Shown here in pieces: positions 5,040-60,660 of a stretch of DNA of 64,000 nt. Positions within the stretch are counted from its first letter, which is position 1, and each line of letters opens with the position of its first letter. The position numbers and the translations under genes were made by a program. Under the pieces are notes generated by a model that saw only the letters and a list, made by a program, of their open reading frames with translations, ran no database searches and was not told the origin of the DNA. This DNA comes from Candidatus Gastranaerophilales bacterium (GTDB taxonomy: Bacteria; Cyanobacteriota; Vampirovibrionia; Gastranaerophilales; Gastranaerophilaceae): the NCBI GenBank assembly GCA_947624975.1, contig CANQMP010000007.1:1-64000 (forward strand), read 5' to 3'.

Positions 5040-5300
5040 AGGCCGTACTCCACGGGGAATTGCAATCTCTCGACCGGAAGCTTATGCCGGGTGCAGAGCC
5101 TGTTGTGAGGGTTAAGCGGGTAACTTTGACAAATGAATTATCGTTGACGTTTAAGGATATGGCGGCGTAAAATATTGAACCGTGTCAGGATGGAAACATA
5201 GCAGCACTAAGATAACCTTTACGGGTGTCGTATTTTTAAAAAGAGGTGGTTTGTTTGAAGATTTTATCTTCCGAATTCGATAGACAGTGGTACGGTTTTT
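5040..5300 (+). ncRNA. ffs: Large-type signal recognition particle RNA
   Basis: About 260 nt of long (Bacillus-type) SRP RNA with an Alu domain. The 5' GGCCGTAC (5041-5048) pairs with GTACGG (5290-5295) near the 3' end and closes the molecule. The 5' part has the Alu-like CCACGGGGAATTGC segment. A GTTGACGTTTAAG block matches the one found in Bacillus scRNA. The conserved S-domain apical helix is visible at about 5186-5216: GTCAGG, the GGAA tetraloop and AGCAGCA, which bind Ffh. A T run at 5296-5302 ends the transcript and reaches the stop codon of the convergent polymerase gene. The RNA scaffolds co-translational targeting to the membrane. Confidence 0.88.
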
Positions 5301-58354: not shown

Positions 58355-59431
58355 TTACAAAATATTTTCATATAATTCATCAAGTTTATATTTTCGCTGT
58401 TTACCGTTACCTGATGCTGTCAAAAAGCCTTTGTCCACCCATTGTGAGGCTAAAAGTCTGGCACTTCGGGCGGAAAATTTAAAGAATTCGGCAATATCTT
58501 TGGAAGTTATAAATTTTTGGGTTTCAAACAGGGTTAAAATTTCTCGTTGTTTAGCGTCAAGCTCTCTTAGAATTTTAAATTCATCTTTTGAATTTTCCTG
58601 TTTTTGTGCTTTAATGCAGACGGCATTAAAGGCTTTAGCCATGCCGTTTATAAAATATTCAACCCATTTTGTAATATCTGCATTTTGTCTTCCGAGGTAA
58701 TAGTTATGGGAATTTCCGATGGTTAAAGCGTCATAATAACCTTGCAAATCTTTTGCATAATATTCTTCCAAGGAGTAAATTCCTTTCAAATCGTATCCGT
58801 ATCTGTGCAGGAAAAATGTTGTAAGAAGTCTTGCCGTACGACCGTTACCGTCGAAATACGGATGAATAGTCACAAACTGATAATGAATAATAGCTGCTTT
58901 AATCGGCACGGGGATATCGTCATCGGAATTTATCCACCGGACAAACTCTTTCATCAAACCTTCAACATCTTTAGCCTCCGGGGGCATATAGACAATACCG
59001 CCCGTAAGCGAGTCAGTAATGACATTTTGAGCTTGCCTGTATTCGCTTTTTTTCAATTTTGAATTTGAACCGCCCGTAACCAGAGCATGAATATATTTAA
59101 TATTATCTTCTGTCAGCACAGATTTATCTTTTATAAGTTTTTCGATGTAATCGAGTGCGGCATAATAACCCTTAATTTCTTTTTCATCGCGTATTCTTCC
59201 GGTATTTGAGACCTTGTGATTAATAAGATTACTGACTTCTTTTTGTGTAAGCTTGTTGCCTTCAATTTGTGTTGAATAATGGATAGCGGAAACTTTTGCG
59301 GTTTCTCTGAGGGAATTCAACAATTTAGGGTTAATTGGCAGGCTTTTAACGGTTTCTTTCACGCGTTCTATCTCGATAAGATTATTTGCTATCGAGTTAG
59401 TTATTGAAAAAACAGGATTAAAATTTGCCAT
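58355..59431 (-). CDS. Fic-domain AMPylation protein with N-terminal inhibitory helix
   Basis: 358 residues. The N-terminal helix carries the inhibitory motif STQIEGN (about residue 52-58; Glu blocks the ATP site), placing it in class II. The Fic core HPYFDGNGRTAR (about 193-204) has the catalytic His. The last ~70 residues form a winged-helix-type domain (LTLFETQKFITSKDIAEFFKFSARSARLLASQWVDKGFL), usual in chromosomal Fic regulators. It may AMPylate a housekeeping target or control its own gene. Its ribosome binding site is embedded in 11-bp repeats that could be an operator. Confidence 0.9.
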   Translation of the reverse strand: MANFNPVFSITNSIANNLIEIERVKETVKSLPINPKLLNSLRETAKVSAIHYSTQIEGNKLTQKEVSNLINHKVSNTGRIRDEKEIKGYYAALDYIEKLIKDKSVLTEDNIKYIHALVTGGSNSKLKKSEYRQAQNVITDSLTGGIVYMPPEAKDVEGLMKEFVRWINSDDDIPVPIKAAIIHYQFVTIHPYFDGNGRTARLLTTFFLHRYGYDLKGIYSLEEYYAKDLQGYYDALTIGNSHNYYLGRQNADITKWVEYFINGMAKAFNAVCIKAQKQENSKDEFKILRELDAKQREILTLFETQKFITSKDIAEFFKFSARSARLLASQWVDKGFLTASGNGKQRKYKLDELYENIL

Positions 59432-59433
59432 AA

Positions 59434-59473
59434 AATTGCCGCCTTTTTGCCACTATTTTGCCACTATTTTGCC
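59434..59473. promoter_or_regulatory. 11-bp iterons over the fic promoter and RBS
   Basis: Plus-strand units ending in TTTTGCC or TTTTTGCC repeat at an 11-base period (59441-59451, 59452-59462, 59463-59473, with a partial unit 59434-59440). Two are identical (ACTATTTTGCC). They cover the AAGG ribosome site and run to three bases from the fic ATG, as expected for a DNA-binding autorepressor, possibly the Fic C-terminal domain itself. Confidence 0.6.
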
Positions 59474-59518
59474 GTTAAGTCAAGATGGGGTGTAATCCAA
59501 AAATCAGAAATAAAAAAA

Positions 59519-59592
59519 TCGGGATGACAAGATTCGAACTTGCGACCCCCGCGACCCGAACACGGTGCGCTACCAGGCTGCGCTACATCCCG
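59519..59592 (-). tRNA. trnP: tRNA-Pro (CGG)
   Basis: Acceptor CGGGATG/CATCCCG, D stem GCGC/GCGC, anticodon loop TTCGGGT (CGG), T stem GCAAG/CTTGT with TTCGAAT loop. The CCA end is not encoded. A tRNA-like leader precedes it. Confidence 0.95.
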
Positions 59593-59732
59593 ACGATTTT
59601 TGTTTTTATTGCTATTCAGTTGTCAATTTTAACTTTATCTTATACGGAATATATCTGAATAGCAAGGCGCTACCATTCCCTCTCGCGGAACAATTCACCG
59701 GATTGTTCCGCTCGGCAGAGTGCTACATCCCG
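59593..59732 (-). other. tRNA-half-like leader before tRNA-Pro(CGG)
   Basis: The minus strand repeats the first 11 bases of tRNA-Pro (CGGGATGTAGC). It then has a 46-base insertion (59676-59721), with an inner hairpin GGAACAAT/ATTGTTCC, in place of the D-loop, then TGGTAGCGC. It diverges where the anticodon arm should start. The rest holds a 10-base inverted repeat TTGCTATTCA/TGAATAGCAA (59609-59618, 59656-59665) with TTGACAACTGAATAGC. There is no anticodon arm or T arm, so it is not a tRNA. Confidence 0.65.
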
Positions 59733-59746
59733 ATGAGTTAAAAAAT

Positions 59747-59820
59747 TCGGAACGACAGGATTTGAACCTGCGACCTCTACCACCCCAAGGTAGCACGCTA
59801 CCAAGCTGCGCCACGTCCCG
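59747..59820 (-). tRNA. trnP: tRNA-Pro (GGG)
   Basis: Acceptor CGGGACG/CGTTCCG (with GU and mismatch-like pairs), D stem GCGC/GCGT, anticodon loop TTGGGGT (GGG), T stem GCAGG/CCTGT with TTCAAAT loop. The CCA end is not encoded. It lies 15 bases upstream of the leader of the next tRNA-Pro in the direction of transcription. Confidence 0.93.
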
Positions 59821-59955
59821 ATTTTTTTTTAAGATTGCTATTCAGTTGTCAATTTTGGTTTTGTTGTACAGGGGACATGCTTGAATAGCAAGACGCTACC
59901 AAGCCTCTCTCGAAACGATAATCAATCGTTTCGTTCGGCAGAGTGCCACGTCCCG
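59821..59955 (-). other. tRNA-half-like leader before tRNA-Pro(GGG)
   Basis: Same architecture as the other leader: CGGGACGTGGC copied from the tRNA 5' end, a D-loop insertion (59902-59944) with hairpin GAAACGAT/ATCGTTTC, TTGGTAGCGTC, then the inverted repeat TTGCTATTCA/TGAATAGCAA (59835-59844, 59882-59891). The sequence follows its own tRNA's 5' half rather than the other leader's. A -10 TATAAT on the minus strand (60000-60005) can drive the whole set. Confidence 0.65.
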
Positions 59956-60084
59956 ATTTTTTTCACGTTGTTTTTGGATTTTCAATTTACCGTATTACTA
60001 TTATATCACCTCAAAATTTTTTGCAATACTTTTTTATAAATCTGTCATGGAATTTGTGTAATTTTCATAAATTGACTTTCGTGC

Positions 60085-60660
60085 GGGAGATGAGTTTTTA
60101 TTCCCTCTCTTGAAAAGGGAGGGGGAAACCGCACCCCACCCTAACCGAAATTTCTAAATTCGCATGGCTCATTAAGAAATTTCCCTCTCGCAAAACGATA
60201 CTTAATCGTTTTGCTCGGCAGAGTCCATTTGGGGAGGGGAAAATCATCTGTCATTGCGAGCGAATGCCTCAGCTAATAAATTTGTTGGGGTAGAAACCCC
60301 CAACTTACACTTTAGTTCTCAACATGAAAAATCAAAATCCGACGTCATTGCGAGCGAATGCGAAGCAATCCAGCTTATTATAAGCACGCAGTGCCTAAAA
60401 GAACCTCTCACTTCTCACTTTTAAAAAATTTGTTGGGATGGAAACCCCCAACTTACACTTTAGTTCCTTCCCTTTTTAAGGGAAGGTTAGGATGGGTTAA
60501 TATTTTTTGTACGAAGTGACGATTTACCAGACCCCTCACCCGAATTTCTAAGTTCACTGCGTTCACTAAGAAATTCTTCCCTCTCCCGCAGGGGGAGAGG
60601 GGAATATATTATCTGCACGAAGTGCCGTAACGAACCTGCCACCTTTCACCTCTCTGTCTA
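60085..60660. repeat. Composite intergenic repeat array (~570 bp)
   Basis: Gene-free. Units as at 42.3 kb: GGGAGGG-type palindromes (about 60105, 60470, 60585), GTCATTGCGAGCGAATGC (about 60252 and 60343), TTGTTGGGGTAGAAACCCCCA (about 60281) and TTGTTGGGATGGAAACCCCC (about 60430), AACCTCTCACTTCTCAC (about 60404), GCACGAAGTGCCG (about 60615). Nested palindromes with arms GAAATTTCTAA/TTAAGAAATTTC (about 60147-60183) and GAATTTCTAAG/CTAAGAAATTC (about 60541-60576) are inserted. Confidence 0.85.
60186..60233. repeat. Third copy of the CTCTCGC-hairpin-CGGCAGAG element
   Basis: CCCTCTCGC, hairpin AAAACGAT-ACTTA-ATCGTTTT, then GCTCGGCAGAGTCC. Copies with other hairpin sequences lie in the D-loops of the two tRNA-like leaders (59676-59721 and 59902-59944). 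The ends are constant and the inner stem covaries. Confidence 0.7.

Follow-up and report, generated by a model that had tools for sequence, protein, structure and literature searches.

Leaders that copy the 5' part of the following tRNA, often with antisense to it, in Gastranaerophilales: candidates for control of a tRNA by its own folding

Two tRNA-Pro genes of a Candidatus Gastranaerophilales bacterium, one of the uncultured gut relatives of the cyanobacteria, are each preceded by a leader that copies the 5' end and part of the D arm of the very tRNA it precedes, carries a hairpin in place of the D-loop, and ends in a tail that can pair back to the copy. Leaders of the same layout stand before other tRNA genes of this genome and in further families of the order, and their tails are often antisense to the tRNA that follows. 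We tentatively propose, with slightly less than even confidence, that the leader is an RNA acting in cis and specific to its own tRNA, with strands exchanged among copy, antisense, and tRNA so as to tune the amount of mature tRNA.

The two genes lie in a stretch of 64,000 nucleotides (contig CANQMP010000007.1 of assembly GCA_947624975.1, positions 1 to 64,000), referred to here as the window. On the minus strand, positions 59955 to 59518 read in order a copy of tRNA nucleotides (nt) 1 to 11, a hairpin, a D-arm copy, a tail, and tRNA-Pro(GGG), and then the same series for tRNA-Pro(CGG) (Table 1). An initial annotation, made from the letters of the window, had described before each tRNA-Pro a module of about 140 bases with its own tRNA's first 11 bases and part of the D arm. 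Both copies proved to be exact, and they differ from each other at precisely the positions where tRNA-Pro(GGG) and tRNA-Pro(CGG) differ. The D-loop hairpin that it had described is present as well, but at 41 nt (GGG) and 43 nt (CGG) rather than the 43 to 46 bases given. The 10-base inverted repeat TTGCTATTCA/TGAATAGCAA with TTGACAACTGAATAGC, which it had placed at the end of the module, was found in both leaders; allowing up to two mismatches, the window has no further match to TTGACAACTGAATAGC (0.03 expected). Each tail contains a strand able to pair with the copy upstream of it: in the GGG leader GCATGTCCC with GGGACGTGgc, and in the CGG leader TATATTCCG with CGGGATGTA. Structure prediction gives the GGG leader a three-way junction together with a native tRNA fold (state A below). 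In the leader region, tRNA was the sole Rfam family to match at curated cutoffs.

Several neighboring features were recorded. A T run directly follows each tRNA-Pro (59745 to 59736 and 59517 to 59511, minus strand), also in relatives, as if the tRNA stem served as a terminator. Directly downstream of both genes, on the same strand, lies a gene for a Fic-type protein (58355 to 59431, minus strand; motif HPYFDGNGRTARL, recognized by eye). A bacterial large SRP RNA is encoded at positions 5043 to 5295 of the window on the plus strand (RF01854, 71.2 bits).

Table 1. Positions of tRNA-Pro genes, leader parts, and related sites in the window
Feature	Position	Strand	Basis
tRNA-Pro(GGG)	59746..59821	-	ARAGORN and Rfam RF00005, 59.8 bits
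tRNA-Pro(CGG)	59518..59593	-	ARAGORN and Rfam RF00005, 58.4 bits
GGG leader: copy ("mimic") of tRNA-Pro(GGG) nt 1 to 11, CGGGACGTGGC	59945..59955	-	Exact match to own tRNA
GGG leader: D-loop hairpin, ACTCTGCCGA...GAGAGG, 41 nt	59904..59944	-	Family pattern; stem covariation in relatives
GGG leader: copy of tRNA-Pro(GGG) D-loop and D-stem 3' strand, CTTGGTAGCG	59894..59903	-	Direct match
GGG leader: pairing strand GCATGTCCC	59872..59880	-	Complementary to the mimic, hence to tRNA nt 2 to 9
GGG leader: boxA-like TTGACAACTGAATAGCAA	59835..59852	-	Sequence; motif position before leader-bearing tRNAs
GGG leader: inverted repeat, TTGCTATTCA pairing with TGAATAGCAA	59891-59882 and 59844-59835	-	
CGG leader: copy ("mimic") of tRNA-Pro(CGG) nt 1 to 11, CGGGATGTAGC	59722..59732	-	Exact match to own tRNA
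CGG leader: D-loop hairpin, 43 nt	59679..59721	-	Same sequence as dispersed copies elsewhere in the genome
CGG leader: copy of tRNA-Pro(CGG) D-loop and D-stem 3' strand, TGGTAGCGC	59667..59675	-	Direct match
CGG leader: pairing strand TATATTCCG	59645..59653	-	Complementary to CGGGATGTA; from sequence
CGG leader: internal promoter-like site, TTGCTA-17-TAAGAT	59637..59665	-	Spacing kept in relatives
CGG leader: inverted repeat, TTGCTATTCA (5' arm) and TGAATAGCAA (3' arm)	59665-59656 and 59618-59609	-	
CGG leader: boxA-like TTGACAACTGAATAGCAA	59609..59626	-	Sequence; motif position before leader-bearing tRNAs
Likely promoter of the whole unit, TTGCAA-15-TATAAT	60000..60026	-	Upstream of the first leader; read from sequence
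Hairpin-element copy outside leaders, within a composite intergenic repeat	60184..60224	-	Dispersed-repeat scan

Leaders were sought in the source genome (1.91 Mb, 59 contigs) and in a search set of 33 genomes of its genus. A scan independent of the hairpin, with the 5' ends of other tRNAs as the control for expectation, found an 11-nt self copy (at most one mismatch, within 140 nt) at 6 of 39 tRNAs in the source genome, compared with 0.42 expected; an exact copy at such a distance, as in the window, greatly exceeds chance. Own 5' copies were likewise found at 5 of 38 tRNAs in a congener (control, 0.27) and at 13 of 35 in a genome from a different family of Gastranaerophilales (control, 0.0). 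The layout occurs before tRNAs for Pro (all three), Leu (CAG, GAG, TAA, and TAG), Lys-CTT, elongator Met, Val-GAC, and Thr-GGT and, with other hairpins, before Phe and Gln tRNAs of the source genome; arrays of two to four tandem units are common (loci L048, L049, and L107). Two families besides that of the window show the same layout with hairpins unrelated to that of the window: the one with 13 of 35 tRNAs and a third family with one leader, before Leu-TAG. No leader was seen in two small samples, one of 3 tRNAs from a further family within the order and one of 9 tRNAs from a family elsewhere in the class. Public genomes were scanned with a 15-base pattern that needs just tRNA nt 7 to 11 and the start of the hairpin. 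Among the matches listed, those in Gastranaerophilales almost all precede a tRNA on the same strand and follow that tRNA's own 5' end sequence, and those in unrelated bacteria show no tRNA at the match. The initial annotation had proposed looking for the module in this genome and its relatives; it is present in relatives, linked to tRNA genes, and not randomly placed. Its presence varies among species of one genus, with gains and losses, so no single leader is indispensable, a point against the proposed function. Phage origin was considered and rejected: 33 viral contigs carry the 15-base pattern, none of them with an adjoining tRNA and none with the full hairpin.

A partial tRNA copy beside an intact tRNA is usual at integration sites, and most leaders have the junction between copy and hairpin at nt 11/12. 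The leaders might then be scars of integrative elements that entered tRNA genes at the D arm and restored the gene by duplicating its 5' end. We regard this as very improbable: the "element" would be just 80 to 140 nt long and would precede many kinds of tRNA, in one species after another, the hairpin sequence is family specific, the antisense to the tRNA would be left unexplained, and no integrase-like open reading frame (ORF) was seen at 56.5 to 64 kb (ORFs judged by eye). The last point, together with the unrelated hairpins found in the same place, leaves the earlier suggestion of scars of insertion into duplicated tRNA genes standing as a possible origin only.

Each copy follows its own tRNA, as the initial annotation had held. 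Over 9 nt the copy is identical to its own tRNA in 113 of 139 units, compared with 5 of 619 comparisons with tRNAs of the same anticodon that have another 5' sequence. Across six isoacceptors, conservation is 0.78 to 0.94 in the copy, 0.75 to 0.93 in the D-arm copy, and 0.88 to 0.97 in the tRNA (the lowest value coming from only 4 Lys leaders), figures that cover recognized units only and are biased upward because those units were required to have at most 1 to 3 copy mismatches. Copy and D-arm copy are thus kept about as strongly as the tRNA; the linkers reach 0.40 to 0.54, and shuffled linkers reach 0.28 to 0.35.

The main rival explanation for these data is that the leaders are a DNA by-product without function, produced by template switching or snap-back copying at tRNA genes, with a mobile palindrome in the D-loop of the copy and with tandem duplication and loss keeping the units young. 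It is a serious contender, though we rate it as somewhat improbable. The series copy-antisense-tRNA is the expected residue of a tandem inversion duplication, tandem units are near-identical to their neighbors (flank identity, 0.83), and degenerate leaders occur (L019 and L037), all of which the by-product explanation would accommodate. Recent tandem duplication as the sole cause holds for the arrays; it fails for nearly half of the single units. In 30 single-unit leaders whose flanks are unlike the tRNA flanks, at background similarity, 28 nevertheless have an identical 10-nt copy, which recent duplication cannot account for, and the homology between copy and tRNA ends at the mature 5' end, which also argues against a by-product. 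Correction of the copy guided by the antisense was likewise considered and rejected, since copies without antisense are equally well kept (identical in 37 of 44 leaders). For the recognized units, which have at most 1 to 3 mismatches, these data favor constraint on the copy over recency or correction. Of the two causes that the initial annotation had offered, concerted evolution or selected pairing with the tRNA, the second is favored because the copy is kept despite diverged flanks and because the tails carry antisense.

The hairpin by itself is a new representative of a known kind, the dispersed palindromes. The family ACTCTGCCGA-stem-GAGAGG has 41 copies in the source genome (reversed pattern, 0), most of those examined lying in composite intergenic repeats away from tRNAs; the idea that the hairpin is unique to the module was thus not borne out. 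Among 386 Cyanobacteriota genomes the hairpin family is confined to the bacterial family of the window, plus a single genome from a second one, and it was not found in 200-odd other Cyanobacteriota genomes. Like cyanobacterial small dispersed repeats, Rickettsia palindromic elements, and REP elements, the hairpin alone is a short palindrome of about 40 nt with many dispersed copies per genome, nested in other repeats. Dispersed copies in the same genome match the CGG leader's hairpin exactly, so it has probably moved or been exchanged lately, and identical copies at unrelated sites suggest mobility, as the by-product explanation would have it. In the stem, 8 of 10 inner base pairs covary, and no shuffle reached the observed covariation score; G-U steps are few (1.5% of paired cells), so that the stem resembles a palindrome in DNA more than a helix evolving as RNA, which again agrees with a by-product and counts against a leader RNA. 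Unlike in the known palindromic elements, however, the hairpin here sits within a tRNA copy with antisense, and elsewhere unrelated hairpins substitute for it. What defines the leader is therefore not the sequence of its hairpin, given that different families have different hairpins at this position, and this recurrence speaks against a mere by-product. Dispersed repeats were also noted around and inside leaders. At positions 60080 to 60600 the window holds nested short dispersed repeats of the CCCTCCCC.../CATTGCGAGCGAATGC... types, one with the hairpin element inserted, and composite repeats of this sort recur through the genome. Larger dispersed repeats are inserted in the leader hairpin at L036, L059, L066, and L111, so the D-loop position tolerates long inserts.

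The tails are complementary to their own tRNA more often than chance allows. In the window's family, complementarity of at least 8 nt was found in 31 of 95 tails compared with 3.6% of swapped tails, and complementarity of at least 10 nt was found in 14 of 95 compared with 0 of 2850. This antisense often spans tRNA nt 11 to 25, a region missing from the copy, and thus goes beyond what the copy would need; about half of the family's leaders, however, have little antisense or none, which counts against the proposal. In a second family, 7 of 35 tRNAs are preceded by about 12 to 17 nt of perfect antisense to their own nt 5 to 28 (control, 0.34%), and a third family offers an example before Leu-TAG. 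The clearest cases, with about 13 to 17 nt of perfect antisense to the D arm, are L180 in the source genome and L341, L339, L338, L353, and L344 in genome G062, which precede tRNA-Phe, Asp, Arg, and Ala genes. The middle segment is accordingly complementary to both of its neighbors, as in strand-exchange leaders; the statistics beyond chance concern the tRNA side, and the pairing with the copy was read directly from both window leaders.

A leader of this kind could also act in trans. RNase P might release a copy-hairpin-antisense RNA that must resemble its tRNA because it acts as a decoy or sponge, whose targets might be tRNA 3' halves, RNases, tRNA-modifying enzymes, or small RNAs. Spacer-derived sponges are known, 3'ETS-leuZ of Escherichia coli being one. 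The copy keeps the acceptor 5' strand and the GG of the D arm while its D-loop is blocked, and tandem units (L107 and L048) would yield several decoys per transcript. We nevertheless consider a trans-acting decoy unlikely, because it would not need to adjoin its own tRNA, yet nearly all leaders do (among the matches listed), and because tail antisense specific to the tRNA fits cis action better.

The boxA-like site between tail and tRNA also recurs. The motif TTGAnAAyTnAAT, mostly 15 to 30 nt before the tRNA, was found at 51 of 97 leader-bearing tRNAs (0.6 expected) and at 21 of 108 tRNAs without a hairpin leader of the window type (1.4 expected), several of these inside tRNA operons. The initial annotation had noted a likeness to sequence next to 23S genes in the rRNA spacers of relatives, and as a resemblance this stands: the rRNA spacer of a congener carries GTACATTGAAAATTGCATAAG upstream of 23S, a boxA-like site of the same type as that of the leaders. 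No 23S gene or rRNA operon was found in the source assembly. As in the boxA antitermination leaders of rRNA operons, a TTGAAAAyTnAATA-like site thus precedes a stable RNA; here, by contrast, it stands between a tRNA copy and the tRNA.

Promoter-like sites were seen both before and within the leaders. In Pro-CGG leaders, TTGCTA and a -10-like hexamer downstream are spaced by exactly 17 nt in every one of the 8 species that have TTGCTA, and the inverted-repeat arm covaries with its partner, C/G to T/A. The TTGCTATTCA arm of the Pro-CGG leader doubles as the -35 region of a conserved promoter-like site. The GGG leader of the source genome shares the tail type of the CGG leader; the GGG leaders of relatives are without that tail. 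A TTGCAA-15-TATAAT-like arrangement also precedes the Pro-GGG leaders of relatives, and a strict consensus promoter scan did not list the one in the window.

For the cis-acting leader, these parts suggest a transcript that would carry, after the promoter, the tRNA 5' copy (nt 1 to 11 plus the 3' half of the D arm) with its D-loop hairpin, a tail often antisense to the tRNA 5' half, the boxA-like site, and the tRNA. Copy, antisense, and tRNA could then form two mutually exclusive folds. In state A, the antisense would pair with the copy, and the tRNA would fold normally. In state B, the antisense would instead base-pair to the 5' half of the tRNA, whose place on the 3' acceptor strand would go to the copy; the result would be a dead tRNA-like fold. 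The balance between the two would be set during RNA synthesis, perhaps by factors on the boxA-like site, and would tune the amount of mature tRNA. Folding predictions do place the tRNA 5' half in an antisense hairpin and, in the window's family, let the copy occupy the 3' acceptor strand. By computation, state B is preferred to state A (-5.9 kcal/mol), in secondary-structure energies that exclude tRNA tertiary structure and modification. A sign of design was considered in this preference and rejected: tails swapped from other tRNAs give the same preference (-5.5 kcal/mol), so energy is not evidence of design.

The scheme has partial precedents. Amino acid attenuators and T-box leaders likewise consist of three segments, the middle one pairing with either neighbor, upstream of the regulated gene. 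Here the tRNA itself would be the regulated product, positions 59400 to 60150 of the window contain no terminator-like stem with a T run, and no Rfam T-box matched. The thrS operator of E. coli is an mRNA leader that imitates anticodon arms for ThrRS binding and is thus also a cis-acting leader imitating a tRNA; the present leaders instead copy the acceptor strand and D arm of the tRNA encoded next. The tyrT repeats of E. coli (rtT RNA, RF00391) carry a tRNA 3' end downstream of one tRNA, and they too are tandem units containing part of a tRNA within that tRNA's transcript. The leaders described here differ in carrying the 5' part, upstream, at many tRNAs, with a D-loop hairpin and antisense, and those of the window gave no Rfam match to that family. 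The leader layout was not found described in the literature, as covered by open-licence papers, and to our knowledge the architecture is new.

The cis-acting leader and the template-switching by-product could both be right, the by-product as origin and the leader as present use. More broadly, the leaders may form an order-wide bacterial class in which tRNA copy and antisense compete for the tRNA halves and each gene controls itself by leader-specific strand exchange, a generalization that we hold as possible and with more reserve than the proposal for the leader itself. We know of little control of single tRNA genes by structured leaders in bacteria. A self-copying leader, often with antisense, offers a testable case of tRNA supply set by tRNA folding, and leader and tRNA together are a natural experiment on their coevolution. 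If the leaders should instead be a by-product of DNA template switching, they would preserve a striking record of it at tRNA genes throughout a bacterial order.
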